Positions 10,170 to 35,186 of a stretch of 39,164 nt of DNA are shown piece by piece. Position 1 is the first letter of the stretch; each line of letters opens with the position of its first letter. The position numbers and the translations under genes were made by a program. Under the pieces are notes generated by a model. It ran no database searches and was not told the origin of the DNA. It saw only the letters and a list, made by a program, of their open reading frames with translations. Source of the DNA: a virus; IMG/VR virus record IMGVR_UViG_3300038701_000855, positions 1 through 39,164 of that record; one strand, 5' to 3'.

Positions 10170-10847
10170 TTAATAATTGCGTCTGTAATAGTAATATCTT
10201 GAATCATCATACTCGGCTATATTCTCACCAACAATCTTGCCAGTTGCCGTTCTATTGTATGTTTCGTTTTCTATTGTCTTGTATTCTTCTTTAACTTTCA
10301 TTGAATATGTTGCTTGCCTTGCATCTTCTGGCTTGTAATCCTCAATAAGGTCTAATAGCGTTTTATATTCAATCAATCTAGTTGCGTAATTTGTAAAGTC
10401 ATTCTCGTCTGCGTCGTCAACTAAGTCTGCATAGCTTTTATAGTAATACAAATTTACTGTGTATGTATCATCAGCAAGTGGCGTTATCTCAAAAGCTCCA
10501 TCACGATATGTATAATATCTCGGCAAACCATTACTAACATCATTTGCTATAGCGTCAAACTGACTAGCAGATATATGCTCTAATTCGTATCTATAATTAT
10601 TCTTAAGCAACACCAAGCTATTAGGGTGTACTTGAAATTTAAAGTCAGTTGGGAGGCTCGAAAGCCCCCCGCTGCCCGCTGTTGTTGTTAATGCTGCCAC
10701 GCTCTCTTGAAACCAAAAATATTTGTTCTCATAAAAGTCAATAGCAGCATTAACGGCTTGGTCTATCTGCGCACTATTCGGGCGGAGCAATTCACCGTCT
10801 GACAATTTAGCAGCAATTCTAGTGCGTAATTCAGATAGAGTAGCCAT
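10170..10847 (-). CDS. Head-tail adaptor protein
   Basis: 225 residues. The N-terminus MATLSELRTRIAAKLSDGELL and a following helix (QIDQAVNAAIDFYENKYFWF), then a beta part and C-terminal helices with NLYYYKSYADLVDDADEN and TRLIEYKTLLDLIEDY, match the podoviral adaptor family (SU10/P22 gp4-like) that docks under the portal. The order capsid, small protein, adaptor, tail nozzle fits. The C-terminus is rich in Tyr/Arg (SRYYYYRRNY). Confidence 0.72.
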   Translation of the reverse strand: MATLSELRTRIAAKLSDGELLRPNSAQIDQAVNAAIDFYENKYFWFQESVAALTTTAGSGGLSSLPTDFKFQVHPNSLVLLKNNYRYELEHISASQFDAIANDVSNGLPRYYTYRDGAFEITPLADDTYTVNLYYYKSYADLVDDADENDFTNYATRLIEYKTLLDLIEDYKPEDARQATYSMKVKEEYKTIENETYNRTATGKIVGENIAEYDDSRYYYYRRNY

Positions 10848-13614: not shown

Positions 13615-15678
13615 TTAAACAGTAAATGAAATCTGATTTGTATTAGCATTAAGAAGTTGGTCATTCTCTATATCCAACTTTTGCGCCTCTTCAATTGTCT
13701 TAGTTGTGTCCGCTCTTGTCTTATCAGAATCAACAGCCAATTTAGCAATTTCGCTTTGTATCTTTTGAACTTCCGCTTGCTTCTTAATCAAGTCTTGTTG
13801 CAATGATTCAAGGTTTAACGCTTCAACTTGTTGCGCTAACTCTGCTTGTCTTAGTTGTTGCGCTTGTTGCTCGGGCGTTAATTGCGGGTCAAGCTGCTGT
13901 CTTACACGCTCTTTTGTTGTTTCTTTTATCGGCATATCATCAATCAATGCTGGATAAATGTTTTGCCCTGTCATCAATAAGTTTTGCGCTATTCCCAACA
14001 TAAGTGTTAAATTCTCTCGCTTCTGTACTGGAGTTGTTGGCACTTCTTGCACATCAACATCATATTCAGCAAATAAAGCGTTATCATTCACCGCTTCCAT
14101 TGCAGCAACGCCATTCTCACCAATAACACGAACCAACACACTAGGATTATTCTCAAAGATAACTCGCATATACGTCAACATTAAACGTGCAGATTCTTTT
14201 TGATATAACGTAATGCTATCAAAGTATGTAGCAAGCGTGGAAACAACCTGTTCTATTCTTTGCGCCTCTAATAATGCAGACACTTGTTTATTTTCTGAAC
14301 TTCCTAAAAACTCTGGGTTAACACCAGTAACTTCAAACATACCCGCTTTTGCAGCAGCTAAAACATTCTCATAACCACTTGGCAACGCACTTTGCGCTTT
14401 TGGTTGTATCTTGCCACCAGACAATGCGCCATCATTAACACGGATAGCAGCATCAGTTGAAGCCCATTGTTGCTCAAACCTCTTAGGGTCATTAACAGCG
14501 TTAATCTCATACATAACACCACCTTTAGAATTGTTGGCAATTGTGTATAATATCTCTGTTAATGCTTTATTTGCATAGCGTGACGGCTCTCTTAACTGGT
14601 CAACCATTCCATGCCACACACCTCTTGTTTCATCATAGTCGCCAGTCTTAAACTTGATTGTGAAGCCGTTTTGGTCTTTAGATTTAAACGATTGAAATAC
14701 TTTCTTACCAGATATAATAGCCGTATAATAAACTTGACGCTTATGCTTTACTTCCTCTGCTTCAATTCCGTATTCATCAAACAACGCATGTAACAAATTT
14801 CTTGTCTTAGTCGTCACAACTAGTTCTTCTGATGCAGGGTCAAATGAAAACAAATCTTCTAAAACATCATCGTCCTCATTTTCCATATCTATTTCATCAC
14901 GCAACAATTCAAATGCTTCTGCTATCTCTTGCCTAACAAGCGGGTCTATATCTTCATATAATGGATTCTCAATGCGATAATATGTTTCATACTCCCACCA
15001 TTGATAATAGAATACTTGAACCAAATCTTCATCAACTTCGTTTTCGGCGTACAATCTATCTCTTGTGCTTGTTGTAGACAACGGACTTTCAACAGCCTCA
15101 AAATCTTCTTCTTCTGCACTAAACAAATCAGCGGCATCTTCACGATTCATAACTTTACGGCGATAAACCCAACGGCTATCAAGTAAATTAGCAGCTCTAG
15201 CCTGCGGGTCATAACCAAACTCGTCAAACTTCAAAGAACACGCAGCAACTTCACCAAATGGATTTTTAATATAAGACACACTCTGGTCAACCGCCCCAAT
15301 ACCCGTGATAAGCATCTCTTTATCTTGGCGTGATTCCACTTGCTCAACATTTGCATTTGCTCGTATGTAATCTGAAAATGAATTAGTGCTAGTTGAATAT
15401 TCTTTTTGTAATTGTGCTTCTGGGATTCTAGCTTGATAGTCGGGCTTTCTTCTTAGCTTAATCATAAAGCCTGTAATAGAGTTTATAAAAGGCTTAATGC
15501 GATTAAACACAACAATCTTTCTTTGTTTACCTGCTGATACCCCAACACTATAAGCCATCTCATCACCGCTATAAAACTGGTGGTTAAGCTCTCCTATTTG
15601 ATATTGCAAGTCAAGCCCCGCTTCCGAAATGCTATGATGCTCTTTAAACTGCTTTAATAGGTCTGATTTATTTAACAT
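13615..15678 (-). CDS. Portal protein (P22-like)
   Basis: 687 residues from ATG 15678, which shares its A with the terminase stop (TAATG); an upstream TTG inside the terminase gene is less likely. The N-terminal region YSVGVSAGKQRKIVVFNRIKPFINSITG with VDQSVSYIKNPFGE is P22-type portal. The C-terminal 100 residues form a long Gln-rich coiled coil (QQAQQLRQAELAQQVEALNL), the barrel-like end. It forms the dodecameric ring for DNA entry and tail joining. TAATG coupling to terL suggests matched translation. Confidence 0.83.
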   Translation of the reverse strand: MLNKSDLLKQFKEHHSISEAGLDLQYQIGELNHQFYSGDEMAYSVGVSAGKQRKIVVFNRIKPFINSITGFMIKLRRKPDYQARIPEAQLQKEYSTSTNSFSDYIRANANVEQVESRQDKEMLITGIGAVDQSVSYIKNPFGEVAACSLKFDEFGYDPQARAANLLDSRWVYRRKVMNREDAADLFSAEEEDFEAVESPLSTTSTRDRLYAENEVDEDLVQVFYYQWWEYETYYRIENPLYEDIDPLVRQEIAEAFELLRDEIDMENEDDDVLEDLFSFDPASEELVVTTKTRNLLHALFDEYGIEAEEVKHKRQVYYTAIISGKKVFQSFKSKDQNGFTIKFKTGDYDETRGVWHGMVDQLREPSRYANKALTEILYTIANNSKGGVMYEINAVNDPKRFEQQWASTDAAIRVNDGALSGGKIQPKAQSALPSGYENVLAAAKAGMFEVTGVNPEFLGSSENKQVSALLEAQRIEQVVSTLATYFDSITLYQKESARLMLTYMRVIFENNPSVLVRVIGENGVAAMEAVNDNALFAEYDVDVQEVPTTPVQKRENLTLMLGIAQNLLMTGQNIYPALIDDMPIKETTKERVRQQLDPQLTPEQQAQQLRQAELAQQVEALNLESLQQDLIKKQAEVQKIQSEIAKLAVDSDKTRADTTKTIEEAQKLDIENDQLLNANTNQISFTV

Positions 15679-18113
15679 TACCAACTCATAAAATCATCAT
15701 TTGAATAGCTACTTTGTTTCGCTACTGTTTCACCGCCCGCTAAATACTCCACTTGCTCTTGTGGAAAATACGCCTCAACATCATAAATACGCGTCCACGC
15801 ATCAATCATGTCGTCATTTTTACCAACAGGGAAAAGCATCAATTCATCTTCTATAAATTCACTTGACAAATCATGCACTTCACCTTTGTAGTTATTATAT
15901 AGGATTTTATCAGCAATGTAAACACGGCTATTATCCCAATCAGGGATGGCTCTTCTTATCCTATCCTCTTTGCTTAATCTACCTTTTAACTCCTCTAATC
16001 CAAAGCGATAGTTAATTGCCTCTTGCGCTTTCTGTATGTAATACTTATCCGTCATCATTCCGTATTGCTCAACTCCAACTCTCGGAGGCTTACCGCCTTT
16101 GAAATTCCACTTCTTATGCAGCTTAATAAGCGCATTAACTCTTTCAGTAGGGTTTAGCTTGTCACGCACTAAATCAAGAATATAATAGTTTTGGTCTGGT
16201 GCTAGCCCCACAACAACCATTGCCGTGTAGTCTGCGTTCTCTTTCTTTGTGTTTGCTGGGTCGTAGAATATCCATATATTCATTTCTCGGCAACTAAAGC
16301 TCTCATGGTTTGGATTAAAGAATTGTATTCTATCCTTGCTAAACTCACCATTGCCAACTGGTGCAGGCTCTTGCATGTACTGTCCGTAGAAAACATATTT
16401 CTCTTTAGAACTTCCCTCGTCACGCTGCTTAACTAAGTCCTTAAAGTTTTCTTTGTACTCCCAATAAGATTTATCTTCGCCTGTTTCTTCATCCTTAATA
16501 ATGGCAGGGATTTTAATATGCTTTACTGGCAAGTTTAATCCACCATTACGAATAAAGCCCGTTGGGTCATTCTCATGCAGTCTTTGCATAATCAAGAGAA
16601 TAGGAGTTGCAGGGTTCGCTTTACGTGATTTAATCGTATTAACTAGAATGTCGTTTATTCTATTTCTATCTGCTGTTGACTCTGCCATTTCTGGGCTAAG
16701 GGGGTCATCGATAATTATACAATTATGTGCGAGTATTCCGTCAACAAAGAAGTTATTGTTTCCCTCAACTTGTATGTCATAGACTTTTGTCGGCTCTCTA
16801 CTAACAACTTCATATCTGGAAATTTGTGTCGCTTTGATTTGTGTATTCTTACATGACAACTCGAACACATTGTTGCAAGATTGCTCGGACTGTTGTTGTG
16901 TTTGTTCTCGTCTATATGATGCACAACCAAACGAACCTCGCTCTCGCACGCTAAACACTGCCCATCCCTTAATTTTATTAAAGGCTTCAACTTCTGAAAT
17001 AGCACTCGATAATCTTTGTGTATATTCTTGTAATTTGAATTGCCCTCTCCTCGCATATTCCTTGAGTGCGCTAAGTCTGCGCATGAGCGGGAACAATGCT
17101 GCGTTAAATAACTTATTGGCATAAACCCACTCGAACAAATAGGACAGCTTTTTTCTGATAAAGTTTTTAATCTTCCCGATTCTTTTGCATCCAAGTTGCT
17201 GCACTCCCTTGAACAGAATATTATCGTCTGATTTCTCTCTATTGATTTCCTCACATCGCTGCGGGCTCTTTTCTTTACCTTTGAACACCTCTTGCATTGA
17301 ATCCAAATGCTTCCCTTGAAGCTGTTGAAGCTTTCCATAGATTGAGGATATTTCTTCGTAGGATTCTCCATTGAAGAACCTGTGGCAAGGCGTGCAGGTG
17401 ATTTCTTTATCACCTGCGGTGAATCTAATAATCTCATGCTTGATACTCTCTTGAACAGCCACAACCCTTTTAGGCTCGACTGTATTAGTTAGATGATTAT
17501 AAGATAATACTATATCACCTTTTTTAATTTCATCAATAACTTTCGTACCCTTAACCATGTTGACTTTTGAGCCTGCTACAAAACAACCTTGCCAGCCATC
17601 ATTCATATGCCCTGCACGAAAGCCAGTCACCTGCCCACGCATTGACGTTGCATATACACCGCCTGCATTCCTTTCCGTGCCATCCTCGTCAAATATAACA
17701 TTCCAACGCTTCTTTGATTTACTATCAGGTCTTATTTTAAGATTCCACAACTCTTGATACTCGTCACTTTCAACAATATCTTTCGCACCTAACGAGTTTT
17801 GTTCAGCTAACTGGTCTGAATATGATAAATGCAAGAACCTGCAACGTGGATTAATAGCAAGTGAACGAGCAATCCAATTAACTACTGCCATTTGAGTTTT
17901 AGAGCTTCCAGGCGAAACGTTAATAATAACAACATGCCCGTCATACACTCCCCGCTCAATCTCAAGCAATGTATCTGCAATAAGGCGGTGATGCCAGTTT
18001 GTTATAAACTTCATCCCTTCACGATGCTTAAAGAAATAACGAGTAAAAAACAACGGGTCTTCTTCACACGCTGCTTTTATTATCTGCCGTCTAATTTCTT
18101 CTTTTGTTGTCAT
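15678..18113 (-). CDS. terL: Terminase large subunit with in-frame intein
   Basis: 811-residue precursor. N-extein residues 1-176 contain the Walker A motif NVSPGSSKT (about 65-73). Residues 177-464 are an intein. The C-extein begins CIIIDDP (465-471), the Walker B motif, and ends with the nuclease region (YDPANTKK near 600 and KNDDMIDAW near 775). The spliced product would be 523 residues, normal for TerL. It cuts and pumps DNA into the head with the small subunit and portal. ATG 18113 overlaps the upstream stop (ATGA). The ATPase site is split by the intein, so activity must depend on splicing (inference). Confidence 0.9.
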   Translation of the reverse strand: MTTKEEIRRQIIKAACEEDPLFFTRYFFKHREGMKFITNWHHRLIADTLLEIERGVYDGHVVIINVSPGSSKTQMAVVNWIARSLAINPRCRFLHLSYSDQLAEQNSLGAKDIVESDEYQELWNLKIRPDSKSKKRWNVIFDEDGTERNAGGVYATSMRGQVTGFRAGHMNDGWQGCFVAGSKVNMVKGTKVIDEIKKGDIVLSYNHLTNTVEPKRVVAVQESIKHEIIRFTAGDKEITCTPCHRFFNGESYEEISSIYGKLQQLQGKHLDSMQEVFKGKEKSPQRCEEINREKSDDNILFKGVQQLGCKRIGKIKNFIRKKLSYLFEWVYANKLFNAALFPLMRRLSALKEYARRGQFKLQEYTQRLSSAISEVEAFNKIKGWAVFSVRERGSFGCASYRREQTQQQSEQSCNNVFELSCKNTQIKATQISRYEVVSREPTKVYDIQVEGNNNFFVDGILAHNCIIIDDPLSPEMAESTADRNRINDILVNTIKSRKANPATPILLIMQRLHENDPTGFIRNGGLNLPVKHIKIPAIIKDEETGEDKSYWEYKENFKDLVKQRDEGSSKEKYVFYGQYMQEPAPVGNGEFSKDRIQFFNPNHESFSCREMNIWIFYDPANTKKENADYTAMVVVGLAPDQNYYILDLVRDKLNPTERVNALIKLHKKWNFKGGKPPRVGVEQYGMMTDKYYIQKAQEAINYRFGLEELKGRLSKEDRIRRAIPDWDNSRVYIADKILYNNYKGEVHDLSSEFIEDELMLFPVGKNDDMIDAWTRIYDVEAYFPQEQVEYLAGGETVAKQSSYSNDDFMSW
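16715..17371 (-). CDS. HNH endonuclease nested out of frame inside the terL intein
   Basis: Reads the same strand as terL but one base downstream in frame. From ATG 17371 it has 218 residues; ATG 17437 (AAGAGAG upstream) is an alternative start. It has zinc-ribbon pairs (CKRCSK with FCSRECS; CPICSSGF with HCSRSC) and a C-terminal HNH module: LRDGQCLACE, VVHHIDENKHNNSPSNLATMC, SSCHVRIHKS. This is a complete, well-formed HNH homing-type enzyme, not a random shadow. Its TAA lies 5 nt past the intein's last Asn codon, so its last 30 codons overlap intein blocks F and G. Likely role: cutting intein-less terL alleles so the element spreads (inference). Confidence 0.8.
   Translation of the reverse strand: MENPTKKYPQSMESFNSFKGSIWIQCKRCSKVKKRARSDVRKSIERNQTIIFCSRECSNLDAKESGRLKTLSEKSCPICSSGFMPISYLTQHCSRSCADLAHSRNMRGEGNSNYKNIHKDYRVLFQKLKPLIKLRDGQCLACESEVRLVVHHIDENKHNNSPSNLATMCSSCHVRIHKSKRHKFPDMKLLVESRQKSMTYKLRETITSLLTEYSHIIV
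16722..17585 (-). mobile_element. Intein (Hint domain) in TerL, 288 aa
   Basis: Block A: Cys1 in CFVAGSKV (codon 17585-17583) with two further strands (GTKVIDEIKKGDIVLSYN). Block B: DKEITCTPCHRFF with the TxxH motif. Block F: VYDIQVEGNNNFFVDG. Block G: ILAHN ending in His-Asn, followed by Cys+1. All splicing residues are present, so it should be active. Between blocks B and F the terL frame has about 170 residues with no LAGLIDADG or HNH motif; that DNA instead encodes an HNH enzyme in the +1 frame. The insertion point is the conserved Walker B site, a known preferred terminase intein site. Confidence 0.9.
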
Positions 18114-22036: not shown

Positions 22037-22420
22037 CTACCCCCAAAACTCACTAAATCCAAAGGCTATTATAGCACAAGCACCCAGAATATATAAGAAA
22101 CTACTGATAAATATCTTAATTAACCTACGCCTTTCGCTTGCTCTAATTTGCTCAATAATTGCTTGTTTGCGCTCTTGTTTAAGCTGCTCTTGTTGTTCTA
22201 TAATCGGAATACTTACCACCAAACCAGTAACTTCATCAAATTCAAAAAATTTACTCAATGCTAGATATGTCTTTTCTGACACTATACTGCTTTTATGATA
22301 CATAACACCGTGTAATTGTGCGTATGTCATGCCACATTGTTTAGCTACATAATCAAAACTTAGTTTATATTTTAATCTTTCTGCTGTAATGCTTGGTTTA
22401 TCTATTTTATATTTAGGCAT
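22037..22420 (-). CDS. Membrane-anchored HTH protein, 127 aa
   Basis: Residues about 10-60 form an XRE-like helix bundle (LSFDYVAKQCGMTYAQLHGVMYHKS). Then come a basic/Gln-rich helix (EQQEQLKQERKQAIIEQIRASERRR) and one C-terminal membrane segment (IFISSFLYILGACAIIAFGF). AAGGAG lies 9 nt before the ATG. It is the first gene behind the shared CAAGTAG promoter. An HTH tethered to the membrane suggests a sensor or immunity regulator (inference). Confidence 0.65.
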   Translation of the reverse strand: MPKYKIDKPSITAERLKYKLSFDYVAKQCGMTYAQLHGVMYHKSSIVSEKTYLALSKFFEFDEVTGLVVSIPIIEQQEQLKQERKQAIIEQIRASERRRLIKIFISSFLYILGACAIIAFGFSEFWG

Positions 22421-22452
22421 AATCTATACTCCTTTTATTGTTGTGTAAACCT

Positions 22453-22481
22453 ATAGTATCTAGCTTTTTCCTACCTGTCAA
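22453..22481 (-). promoter_or_regulatory. Shared-type early promoter C
   Basis: Minus strand TTGACA, 17-nt spacer, TACTAT. The leader has ACACAACAA (22446-22438) and AAGGAGTAT (22434-22426). Spacer, leader and upstream repeat match promoters at 27470 and 33146. Confidence 0.75.
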
Positions 22482-26286: not shown

Positions 26287-26315
26287 TTGACAATATCAAG
26301 AGAAAAGTTTATACT
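26287..26315 (+). promoter_or_regulatory. Strong promoter P1
   Basis: TTGACA (26287-26292), 17-nt spacer, TATACT (26310-26315). Start near 26322. No gene of normal size lies before the terminator-like hairpin at 26438. Confidence 0.7.
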
Positions 26316-26321
26316 TCTCTA

Positions 26322-26468
26322 TACAACTGACATGAGTTATGTGCATATATAACTTAAGTTGTTATAGCCTTGCGTACCTAGTGTATGTCCAAGTTCCTGA
26401 GTTCCTGTAATAGGCTCTCTGCTTAAACATGTATTCGAAGCCCTGCTATTAGTGGGGCTTTAGTTTTA
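26322..26468 (+). ncRNA. Candidate small RNA from P1
   Basis: Promoter P1 and a terminator-like hairpin bound a stretch of about 147 nt with only a 6-codon ORF. The 5' end could fold: ACAACT (26323-26328) pairs with AGTTGT (26357-26362) outside an inner AGTTAT/ATAACT stem. The rest to 26437 is weakly structured. It may be a small RNA or a long leader ending in an attenuator. Confidence 0.5.
26438..26468 (+). terminator. Terminator-like hairpin T1
   Basis: AAGCCC/GGGCTT stem extended inward by two wobble pairs and C-G (26438-26460), then TTTAGTTTT. It shares CCCTGC...GTGGGG with hairpin T2. Confidence 0.6.
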
Positions 26469-26482
26469 TGGTAGGTGATATA

Positions 26483-26511
26483 TTGACAAGCAGTTAACCT
26501 CTAGCTATAAT
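26483..26511 (+). promoter_or_regulatory. Consensus promoter P2
   Basis: TTGACA (26483-26488), 17-nt spacer, TATAAT (26506-26511): both hexamers are perfect. The -35 continues as TTGACAAGCAG, one half of the CAAGTAG operator motif. It drives the zinc-ribbon microprotein gene through hairpin T2. Confidence 0.8.
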
Positions 26512-26587
26512 TACGTTTAGCACAACAGTAAATATTACTTGAACATTTTATAAGCCCAATAGCTATTAATAAATCTTGTAAAATTTA

Positions 26588-26618
26588 TAACCCTGCATTT
26601 CTATGTGGGGTTATTTTT
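26588..26618 (+). terminator. Attenuator-like hairpin T2
   Basis: TAACCCTGCAT pairs over 11 positions (two wobbles) with ATGTGGGGTTA around a 4-nt loop, followed by TTTTT. It lies between promoter P2 and the AGGAG of the gene at 26628, so readthrough must happen for expression. Confidence 0.65.
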
Positions 26619-26798: not shown

Positions 26799-26870
26799 AC
26801 TAGAAAAGAGCGTGACGAACAATAAATCAGCTAAATAATTGTATATGCAATAAGTTTATATGATAAGCAT

Positions 26871-26912
26871 AAAAAAAGAGGGTAACTAGACATTTCCTGC
26901 CTTAACCCTCTT
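26871..26912 (-). terminator. Strong intrinsic terminator
   Basis: Minus strand AAGAGGGTTAA (26912-26902) pairs with TTACCCTCTT (26885-26876, one bulge), followed by seven T. It ends the nuclease/small-RNA transcripts. Confidence 0.75.
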
Positions 26913-27020
26913 ATATAACAGGCTTAACCCGAAGGAAGCAAATAGGGCTAGCACAACGCTATAGAAAAACACACAACAACAGCGTGAACGCACCAGCCCA
27001 AACTAAGGAGTATCTTAGAT
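26871..27020 (-). ncRNA. Candidate regulatory small RNA complementary to early leaders
   Basis: About 150 nt on the minus strand with its own promoter (27027-27054). Stem-loop 1: CUAAG/CUUAG (27018-27003) with AUACUC in the loop. Stem-loop 2: GGGCUGGUGC pairs with GUGCUAGCCC, then ACGCU with AGCGU (26999-26945), exposing a 20-nt U/G-rich loop. Three G-U pairs in stem 2 would be A-C mismatches on the plus strand, which fixes the RNA strand. Stem-loop 3 is the terminator. The loops complement the shared leader elements ACACACAACAAC and AAGGAGUAU. Confidence 0.6.
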
Positions 27021-27026
27021 TGTTAT

Positions 27027-27054
27027 AGTATACCATCAAACTAGTTTATTTCAA
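27027..27054 (-). promoter_or_regulatory. Candidate small-RNA promoter
   Basis: Minus strand TTGAAA (27054-27049), 16-nt spacer, TATACT (27032-27027). The -35 touches the end of the nuclease gene; start near 27020. Confidence 0.5.
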
Positions 27055-27426
27055 GTTGTTTTCCACAAACTCATGAAACTCATCTATTGACTTAATCTGT
27101 ATTGTATCAACTAAAGTATTATTAAACGCCTCTACAACGTCTTTTTGTTCTTTTGTGTATGTATTCTTGCCATATTTAAACTCTATCAACCACACCTTAG
27201 TTAAATGCTTTCTTGCGCCTATTATAGTAAGGTCAAAGACTCCCGCCTCATAACCATCTGCTTTGGCAGCCATCTTCTGTGGCATAGTTAGAGCTGCAAG
27301 GTCTGGAGGGCACGCCCAATATACAGCGTCCCACTTCTTTAATTGACGTAGCCTTATCATATTGCGTAGATATGCTATGCAAGGTCGTCTTACTTTCATT
27401 CTTTCATGTTGCTGTTTTCTTGCCAT
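27046..27426 (-). CDS. VRR-NUC/PD-(D/E)XK-type nuclease
   Basis: 126 residues from ATG 27426 (MARKQQHERMK). Core motif: YEAGVFDLTIIGARKHLTKVWLIEFKYGKNTYTKEQ, read in blocks at about 65-105, giving the catalytic D...E-x-K. It is the size of free-standing VRR-NUC nucleases of phages (Holliday-junction or flap-type cutting). Its -10 TATAAT lies 6 nt before the ATG, so the message may be leaderless. Confidence 0.75.
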   Translation of the reverse strand: MARKQQHERMKVRRPCIAYLRNMIRLRQLKKWDAVYWACPPDLAALTMPQKMAAKADGYEAGVFDLTIIGARKHLTKVWLIEFKYGKNTYTKEQKDVVEAFNNTLVDTIQIKSIDEFHEFVENNLK

Positions 27427-27462: not shown

Positions 27463-27480
27463 CAAGTAGTTGACAAGTAG
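27463..27480 (+). promoter_or_regulatory. Operator-like direct repeat A
   Basis: CAAGTAG-TTGA-CAAGTAG, two exact copies 11 bp apart over the -35 of promoter A and just upstream of the divergent nuclease promoter. Confidence 0.65.
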
Positions 27481-27498
27481 GAAATGGGGTGTTAGGAT
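27470..27498 (+). promoter_or_regulatory. Shared-type early promoter A
   Basis: TTGACA (27470-27475), 17-nt spacer, TAGGAT (27493-27498). The leader from about 27505 carries ACACAACAAC and AGGAGTA. It drives the main early operon. Confidence 0.75.
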
Positions 27499-27532
27499 GG
27501 GAACACACAACAACAATATAGGAGTAGCAGAT

Positions 27533-27682
27533 ATGAATAACGTTACAGACATAACACCAAAATTAATTGAGAAGCAAAACAAGCAAGCAGCCAAAAGCTT
27601 TGTTGCTAAGATGGATTGTAAAGGTGAAGCTTATTATGAGCTTATGGCATTAATGGCGCAGTTGGAGAAAAAGCATGACTGA
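27533..27682 (+). CDS. First early-operon protein, 49 aa
   Basis: ATG 27533 (MNNVTDITPKLIEKQNKQ), 8 nt after AGGAG; earlier in-frame starts fall inside the promoter. The helical middle AAKSFVAKMDCKGEAYYELMALMAQLEKKHD suggests a small regulatory or DNA-mimic-like protein, but no family is recognised. It overlaps the next gene by 8 nt. Confidence 0.65.
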   Translation: MNNVTDITPKLIEKQNKQAAKSFVAKMDCKGEAYYELMALMAQLEKKHD

Positions 27683-30060: not shown

Positions 30061-30433
30061 GACTGATAAAATAAAACAAGATTTAAAAGCTGTAGCCGAT
30101 GCTTTAATAGATTCTTATGAGCAAACAAGAAAAGCCGACCCAGAATGGCAATTATTATTTAAAAATGTGGATGGAGTTGATTTTAAATCACTTCTTAGGG
30201 AGGCTGCTCATAAAATGCAAACTATAGCATTGGATGTATATAGCCTTATTGAAGAACAGTTAACAAAAGAGGGGAAAGAAACTTCTAGAGAAATATTAGA
30301 TGTAACATACGCATTGCCATTCCTAGAAAGAAGACTTGCAAAACATGCGTGTGATACGGAGTATTCTGCTTGCAGCGTTGATAAAGCCTTTTATATTCTA
30401 AATAAATATATTAATGAACAGGAGAGTAAATAA
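30059..30433 (+). CDS. Hypothetical helical protein, 124 aa
   Basis: All-helical (IKQDLKAVADALIDSYEQTRK, YALPFLERRLAKHACDTEY). Its start region and its last seven codons lie in two copies of the same 22-bp repeat, so it may have been added as a cassette. Family not recognised. Confidence 0.55.
   Translation: MTDKIKQDLKAVADALIDSYEQTRKADPEWQLLFKNVDGVDFKSLLREAAHKMQTIALDVYSLIEEQLTKEGKETSREILDVTYALPFLERRLAKHACDTEYSACSVDKAFYILNKYINEQESK
30410..30431 (+). repeat. 22-bp repeat with ribosome site, copy 2
   Basis: Encodes the C-terminus of the 124-aa protein and also supplies the ribosome site of the next gene. Confidence 0.75.
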
Positions 30434-32402: not shown

Positions 32403-32612
32403 ATGAACAGAAAACAAATACTAGGCGCAAAGCTTAGAAAAGCAAGAGATGATAAAGGGTTAACAAGATACGCATTAGGTGCAAGGCTTGGCGTTACCTT
32501 TGAAGCTGTGAAGCATTGGGAGGATGGAACTAATATGCCTAACAAGCAAAGACGCTTAGAGGTGTTGAAAGTGCTAGGGATTAAAAGCAGAAAGTTCTTC
32601 GAGGGGGTGTAA
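32403..32612 (+). CDS. XRE-family HTH regulator, 69 aa
   Basis: One Cro/CI-type HTH: ILGAKLRKARDDKGLTRYALGARLGVTFEAVKHWEDGTNMPN in blocks at about 6-47. The size fits a Cro-like repressor with no further domain. It is a candidate to bind the CAAGTAG direct repeats or the 19-bp palindromes (inference). Ribosome site AAGGAG. Confidence 0.75.
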   Translation: MNRKQILGAKLRKARDDKGLTRYALGARLGVTFEAVKHWEDGTNMPNKQRRLEVLKVLGIKSRKFFEGV

Positions 32613-32982: not shown

Positions 32983-33149
32983 CTTATCCCTTTGTGCTAT
33001 TATACAACGACGGACACAAGCAAGAGATAACTCTAACGTGTGATAGTATAGAGGAAGCAAAGGAGCAACAACGCCTGATAATACAGGACTATAACAGGGA
33101 TATGATGCGCTGTATAATATTATTTCCTGTTCGTGAAATAAGTAGTTGA
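32979..33149 (+). CDS. Hypothetical protein, 56 aa
   Basis: ATG overlaps the upstream stop (ATGA). MTYPFVLLYNDGHKQEITL is a short beta start, then a helix (SIEEAKEQQRLIIQDYNRDM). Its last codons overlap the operator repeat and the -35 of promoter B. Confidence 0.55.
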   Translation: MTYPFVLLYNDGHKQEITLTCDSIEEAKEQQRLIIQDYNRDMMRCIILFPVREISS

Positions 33150-33156
33150 CAAGTAG
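33139..33156 (+). promoter_or_regulatory. Operator-like direct repeat B
   Basis: TAAGTAG-TTGA-CAAGTAG, 11 bp apart, over the -35 of promoter B; one base differs from copy A. Confidence 0.6.
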
Positions 33157-33174
33157 TTTTTAAGCTGTTAATCT
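33146..33174 (+). promoter_or_regulatory. Shared-type early promoter B
   Basis: TTGACA (33146-33151), 17-nt spacer, TAATCT (33169-33174). The leader has ACACACAACAA (33181-33191) and AGGAGTA (33195-33201). Confidence 0.72.
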
Positions 33175-33207
33175 GTACTTACACACAACAAAACAGGAGT
33201 AAATAAA

Positions 33208-33555
33208 ATGTTTATAACTTTCGTTAAAGGTCAGATATCACCAGCGTTAGCATACGATACAAAAGAGCAATTACTTAGTGCCTTAGAAGATGATTTGAAG
33301 TTTGAAGTATTATCACAGAAAGAGTTTACAGATTCAGTTATTCTTGACACAGAAGCTATTGATTATACTTATAGCCCTTGTCATGCAGATTACTATATTA
33401 ATATAACTGACTATACAAGCAATGGTGAAGAGTTAAGCGTATATTCACATGATGAAATGGCAGGGCGTTCATTTGACAATGAGGAGTTCGTGGGGGTTTA
33501 TAAAGATGGTGAATATGCTATCTTTGCAGGGAATAAGTTGGAGTTTAGCGAGTAA
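33208..33555 (+). CDS. Hypothetical protein under promoter B, 115 aa
   Basis: Acidic Tyr/Asp-rich alpha-beta protein (MFITFVKGQISPALAYDTKEQ, DYYINITDYTSNGEELSVY). No membrane segment. First gene of the second early operon; function unknown. Confidence 0.6.
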   Translation: MFITFVKGQISPALAYDTKEQLLSALEDDLKFEVLSQKEFTDSVILDTEAIDYTYSPCHADYYINITDYTSNGEELSVYSHDEMAGRSFDNEEFVGVYKDGEYAIFAGNKLEFSE

Positions 33556-34878: not shown

Positions 34879-35186
34879 CAGATAAACTAGAAACTATTAA
34901 AGAGGCTTTAAATGGTTATAATCGTGCTAAGCTTAATAATGATATTTCAAATTGGTTGCACATAAATACTGATTTATTTGTTGATTTGCTTAATAGCTAT
35001 ATAGAGGCTAGAGATAGTGAGGAGATGGTGGAAAGAGTGGCTAAGGCTATATATGATTTACAACCTGATTATAATTCTATTGGTGAAAAGAAAGAATGGC
35101 ATCATATTGAAAACGACTCACCACTTAAAGAACATTACGTAGATGTTGCGAATACAGCAATTCAAGCTATGGAGGGCGGGGAATGA
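34875..35186 (+). CDS. Hypothetical helical protein, 103 aa
   Basis: KLETIKEALNGYNRAKLNND, LFVDLLNSYIEARDSEEMVERVAKAIYD, DVANTAIQAMEG: a helical phage protein with the MVERVAKAIYD/AIQAM pattern that is frequent in small phage ORFs. Overlaps both neighbours by 4 nt. Confidence 0.55.
   Translation: MTDKLETIKEALNGYNRAKLNNDISNWLHINTDLFVDLLNSYIEARDSEEMVERVAKAIYDLQPDYNSIGEKKEWHHIENDSPLKEHYVDVANTAIQAMEGGE

Follow-up and report, generated by a model that had tools for sequence, protein, structure and literature searches.

Introduction

Among the RNAs that resemble the one reported here, the c4 RNA of phages P1 and P7 is phage-encoded, carries loops that match its target, pairs around the ribosome-binding site and blocks translation; it also takes part in the heteroimmunity of the two phages (PMC12197685). 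Its single target is the ant mRNA and its role is in prophage immunity. It is made from the same transcript as ant and is encoded upstream of it. P22 sar and lambda OOP and aQ are likewise small antisense RNAs that control their phage's own genes, with one target each as described there (PMC12197685); OOP and aQ are encoded opposite that target, and none of the three reads a shared leader address. GcvB, an RNA of enteric bacteria, pairs with ACA-rich elements just upstream of several Shine-Dalgarno (SD) sequences, where such motifs act as translation enhancers that are silenced by the pairing (PMC3879156). The GcvB seed is GU-rich and sits in a single-stranded linker. Finally, RNAs with C-rich loops, such as RNAIII of Staphylococcus aureus and sX13 of Xanthomonas, can pair with several SD regions through their UCC-type loops and are not known to carry a second address element.

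Here we analyse a locus of about 150 nt on the minus strand (26871..27020) of an uncultured phage, IMG/VR virus record IMGVR_UViG_3300038701_000855, whose 39,164 bases are referred to throughout as the window. We consider it likely that this locus encodes a trans-acting antisense RNA that jointly lowers translation of three phage operons. Transcription, pairing and repression are inferred, there being no expression data; the architecture of the RNA, its complementarity to the three leaders, the rank of these leaders across the genome and covariation in a second phage are shown by sequence.

The locus combines features of the systems above. As in c4, loops are complementary to the ribosome-binding region of phage operons and covary with it in a phage-specific manner, a likeness of working and not of descent. 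As in GcvB, a GU-rich seed is complementary to ACA-rich elements upstream of several SD sequences, although here the evidence is sequence complementarity only. Unlike c4, the RNA addresses three dispersed operons through a common leader, has its own predicted promoter and terminator instead of sharing its target's transcript, and comes from a phage in which no integrase was found. The phage antisense RNAs named above (c4, sar, OOP and aQ) have one target each, against three operons here. Whereas GcvB is a host chromosomal RNA, this is a phage RNA with a hairpin-loop seed that tracks the phage's own leaders; RNAIII and sX13 are also host RNAs, and neither has an Rfam match here. Rfam gave nothing at threshold in the window, and the C4 and GcvB models were absent up to E = 10 from the RNA regions of both phages; weak matches to the S15 leader, abiF and rnk_pseudo were judged to be chance. 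By Rfam, then, the RNA is a member of neither family, and that it works like c4 and GcvB is an inference.

Results

A predicted small RNA downstream of a nuclease gene

Directly upstream of the RNA, and on the same strand, lies a gene (27046..27423, minus strand) for a VRR-NUC/PD-(D/E)XK-like nuclease, so named on the basis of sub-threshold Pfam matches. The predicted RNA promoter (27027..27054, minus strand) reads TTGAAA-16-TATACT, with a TG before the -10 hexamer (extended -10) and a -35 that overlaps the stop codon region of the nuclease gene. Taken alone such a promoter is not rare: the region contains 66 promoter-like sites, compared to 62 in shuffles. From a predicted 5' end at around 27020, the RNA would extend to a run of seven U residues at around 26871. 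Its 5' hairpin CUAAGAUACUCCUUAG (27003..27018, minus strand) presents the loop AUACUCC, which is complementary to AGGAGUA(U) SD sites and has an unpaired probability of 0.99 for six of its seven bases. The second hairpin (26945..26999, minus strand) consists of a 15 bp stem (10+5 bp) and a large apical loop, within which lies the antisense segment UGUUGUUGUGUGUU (26968..26981, minus strand), the complement of AACACACAACAACA. The RNA would end, by fold and sequence, in a terminator hairpin AGAGGGUU...UACCCUCU (26912-26876) followed by U7 (26871..26912 in total, minus strand), which a simple terminator scan missed owing to its large inner loop.

The minus strand folds with -48.0 kcal/mol (z = -3.7), a value matched by only one of 200 shuffles, and the plus strand of the same region with -32.7 kcal/mol. 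The minus strand folds better because three G-U pairs in the stem of the second hairpin become mismatches on the plus strand.

Complementarity to the leaders of three operons

The three putative targets are scattered across the window. The first (22421..22481, minus strand) comprises the promoter TTGACA-17-TACTAT, the element ACACAACAA (22446-22438) and the SD AAGGAGUAU before a start at 22420; the second (27470..27532, plus strand) the promoter TTGACA-17-TAGGAT, the element AACACACAACAACA (27502-27515) and the SD AGGAGUA before a start at 27533; and the third (33146..33207, plus strand) the promoter TTGACA-17-TAATCT, the element ACACACAACAA (33181-33191) and again AGGAGUA, with a start at 33208. 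The RNA is encoded on the strand opposite to two of the three. A direct repeat, AAGTAG-TTGAC-A(A/G)GTAG, spans the -35 of exactly these three promoters (22487-22465, minus strand; 27464-27482 and 33140-33158, plus strand); it is likely to be an operator, possibly one bound by the HTH_3 protein encoded at 32403-32612.

The loop of the second hairpin is an exact complement of 14 nt in the 27533 leader (27502-27515), 11 nt in the 33208 leader (33181-33191) and 9 nt in the 22420 leader (22446-22438). When the 90 SD-preceded ATG starts of the window are ordered by longest exact match to the loop, these leaders take ranks 1 to 3, a further start (4813, minus strand) also reaching the 9 nt of the third. 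Dinucleotide shuffling of the loop reached the summed match in 13 of 50,000 cases. A match of 9 nt in all three leaders was reached by 569 of 50,000 shuffles, which is weaker evidence given the low complexity of the loop.

In each leader the ACA-rich element lies at the predicted mRNA 5' end or shortly after it, approximately -14 to -31 from the AUG, and only a few nucleotides separate it from the SD. With the SD (AGGAGUA), the AUACUCC loop shows complementarity in all three leaders, and the two loops follow one another in antisense order. Taken alone, the anti-SD loop lacks specificity; the sequence CUCCUUA in the region of the 5' hairpin equals the tail of 16S rRNA. The leaders have almost no structure (-0.9 to -3.4 kcal/mol, with CACAAC 77-100% unpaired), so that the RNA need open no hidden target site.

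The original prediction, made without database searches, had claimed a minus-strand promoter, stem-loops and a strong terminator, and every one of these was found where it had been placed. Its further claims, that the loop complements the three leaders, that the 5' loop complements their ribosome sites with antisense order preserved and that G-U pairs mark the minus strand as the folded one, held as well, the 14-nt match to the 27533 leader being slightly better than had been noted.

Loop and leaders covary in a mosaic relative

Among named phages we found no close relative of the window, no DNA match and no match to the nuclease. Using the nuclease gene as a marker for relatives, we did recover IMGVR_UViG_3300038701_000915 (36,052 bases, hereafter G1). 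G1 has replication genes and small early-type genes in common with the window, at 30-94% amino-acid identity, and contains no match to the window's terminase, portal or capsid; since replication and small genes are shared while structural genes mostly are not, G1 is a mosaic relative. The window's large terminase subunit (15678-18113, minus strand) contains an intein (Pfam Intein_splicing, residues 192-464).

The nuclease of G1 is 93% identical to that of the window, against 46-48% in a relative that lacks the RNA, and is directly followed, as in the window, by an RNA homologue (L002:10407-10480; blastn, 77% identity over 75 nt). This stretch scores 88 bits with our RNA model, but is itself one of the two sequences from which the model was built. 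The homologue retains both promoter hexamers and their 16-nt spacing, with a diverged spacer sequence, and its 5' hairpin is identical (16 of 16 nt). By manual alignment the stem of hairpin 2 is also preserved: one pair has changed in a fully compensatory way (C-G to U-A), and in two others only one side differs (G-U to G-C and G-U to A-U). The 3' half of the RNA has diverged: the terminator sequence is not conserved and no clear U-tailed terminator is present in the G1 version, so the full set of general small RNA features (promoter, structured RNA, intrinsic terminator) is predicted in the window only.

What has changed in G1 is the loop segment, from UGUUGUUGUGUGUU to UUCGUUGUG, and the leaders have changed with it. 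All three homologous leaders carry CACAACGAA, in front of genes that are only 32-60% identical: the first has CACAACGAA at 2776 (product 60% identical), the second CACAACGAA at 35037 on the minus strand (51% over 41 aa) and the third CACAACGAAT at 30133 on the minus strand (32%). Put differently, ACAAC-AA in the leaders has become ACAACGAA and UUGUUGU in the loop has become UUCGUUGU, with the anti-SD hairpin unchanged. The 9-mer CACAACGAA, for which 0.25 copies would be expected in the 36 kb of G1, occurs there only four times: once in each of the three leaders and once, in inverted form, in the RNA loop. Longest exact matches of cognate pairs measure 14, 11 and 9 nt in the window and 10, 9 and 9 nt in G1, compared to 7, 7 and 7 and 6, 6 and 6 nt for swapped pairs. 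Among 84 starts in G1, the three homologous leaders again rank 1 to 3 by longest exact match. In simulations that gave the window's loop random mutations and one insertion, matches of 9 nt to all three G1 leaders were regained in 0.1-1.5% of cases.

Energy-based measures are less clear-cut. Co-folding does not clearly place swapped pairs below cognate pairs, the reason being that it allowed no pseudoknots and has no way to represent loop-loop pairing; by duplex energy, the third G1 leader is not among the 14 best. In a further fragment, IMGVR_UViG_3300038701_000559, a G1-type leader occupies the 22420 position; the RNA was not found in its 21 kb.

The original prediction had named loops that fail to covary with leader sequence as a refutation; this test was run and passed, in that the loop and three leaders changed alike in the one RNA-carrying relative. 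Its central claim of a riboregulator of three operons is thereby supported, with transcription, repression, "early" and "shuts down" remaining inference. That the operons are early is not established, as the 22420 operon runs on toward the terminase genes.

Only two RNA alleles were found, so the covariation rests on a single phage pair: two homologous RNA alleles, with one RNA change set against three leader changes. The search for alleles covered IMG/VR and GTDB species genomes and did not include metagenome contigs. Searching viral contigs for the exact 5' hairpin returned, apart from G1, only a copy within a terminase-like gene that was ascribed to chance; a stem pattern search returned 64 stretches, none with the RNA beyond G1; 42 loci of DUF6948 relatives held no RNA beyond G1; and GTDB genomes offered no useful relative. 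Two nuclease relatives (L003 and L014), at 43-48% identity, have no RNA downstream of the gene and no model match. One locus (L049) combined a weak model match with a shared leader word, and was rejected when the word turned out to be a promoter -10 and the match the antisense of the locus's own leader.

Discussion

We propose that an independent phage RNA, acting in trans, is encoded at 27020-26871 on the minus strand, and that its two exposed loops read a two-part address, an ACA-rich element plus an SD, on three scattered operons. We envisage 9-14 bp between the ACA element and the large loop of hairpin 2, and pairing of the SD to the UACUCC loop of hairpin 1, the two contacts following antisense order. 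Such pairing would cover the landing site of the 30S subunit and lower translation of the three operons together. Since the landing site would be covered, and ACA motifs of this kind are enhancers that GcvB silences, joint translational repression is the most likely effect. Inference enters this model at several points: transcription and termination as predicted, pairing in vivo, repression as opposed to activation, binding of both loops at once, and timing during infection. Simultaneous binding in particular would, we infer, require either that hairpin 2 opens or that the mRNA bridges its 15-bp stem.

If the model is correct, a single RNA recognises the 5' address shared by three separate operons of the phage, much as a repressor acts on several operators, and specificity should be exchanged when loop and leaders are. 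Two natural allelic sets are already known. We found no tyrosine or serine integrase in the window record or its relatives, records that may be incomplete; prophage immunity is consequently only one role that the RNA might have, infection timing being another. A bolder reading, which we put forward merely as a possibility, is that the RNA is a master post-transcriptional switch, that RNA and addresses co-evolve as allelic sets, and that the outcome is an RNA heteroimmunity among phages that apparently do not integrate.

Three alternative explanations need to be considered. The first is that a regulator of the phage, the HTH_3 protein for instance, binds ACACAACAA as DNA or nascent RNA at all four loci. 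Four copies that change together are also expected of an operator, a candidate HTH regulator is present in the phage, and promoter motifs are shared: AAGTAGTTGACA(A/G)GTAG around the -35 of the window's three promoters and, in G1, GTRGTAAAGTRGGG around the -10, before the element. However, at the RNA locus the likeness to the leaders is confined to what is transcribed (ACA element and SD), and the shared promoter motifs are absent. The copy there is inverted relative to transcription, at a distance of some 40 nt downstream from its own promoter start. It occupies the apical loop of a stem that is conserved, and an anti-SD hairpin that has not changed accompanies it in antisense order. Inversion, apical loop and anti-SD hairpin are needed for RNA-RNA pairing and not for an operator, and we therefore favour RNA pairing and regard the operator explanation as unlikely.

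A second alternative accepts a real phage RNA but holds that its main targets are host mRNAs of the CACAAC type, or that it activates or stabilises the three operons. The loop is indeed GU-rich like the GcvB seed, ACA-rich leaders are GcvB targets (PMC3879156), and prophage RNAs that interfere with GcvB, such as AgvB, are known (PMC12197685). Against host targets, the loop tracks the phage's own leaders upon their change to CACAACGAA, and there is no GcvB match in Rfam even at permissive E-values; against activation, the leaders are short and open, without inhibitory structure to relieve. This alternative, too, appears improbable.

Least credible of all, and very unlikely in our judgement, is that the plus strand is functional, as a decoy leader (ACACACAACAACA ... 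AAGGAGUAU) ending the transcript of the 26628 gene, or that the locus is a dead leader copy: the leader elements do stand in sense orientation on the plus strand, which has a consensus promoter at 26483, but this strand folds much less well with its G-U pairs lost, the SD-like sequence has no start codon and reading frame after it, the minus-strand promoter is conserved in G1, and a dead copy would not be expected to retain its match when the leaders change.

Returning to the proposed trans-acting repression by the minus-strand RNA, we record some further observations on its surroundings. The promoter at 26483 is one of two near-perfect promoters (26287 and 26483) in the stretch 26287-26616 on the plus strand. 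A hairpin resembling a terminator lies after each of them, at 26437-26461 and at about 26590-26616, and the second of these hairpins immediately precedes the SD of the 26628 gene; both units might be further small RNAs or attenuators. Pairing of the 26483 transcript (UAGCACAAC) with the 3' stem of the RNA, 9 nt in the window, is not retained in G1 and was therefore judged to be chance. Beyond the RNA terminator, a block of about 27 nt, ACTTATTGCATATACAATTATTTAGCT, whose core is nearly palindromic, is identical between the window (about 26827-26855) and G1 (L002, about 10544-10572), within DNA that has otherwise diverged. Lastly, the leader of the 36659 gene (36719-36660, minus strand) contains AUACUCC 18 nt before GGAGUAU, in a predicted SD-hiding hairpin that is kept in G1 (L002 872-940, plus strand).
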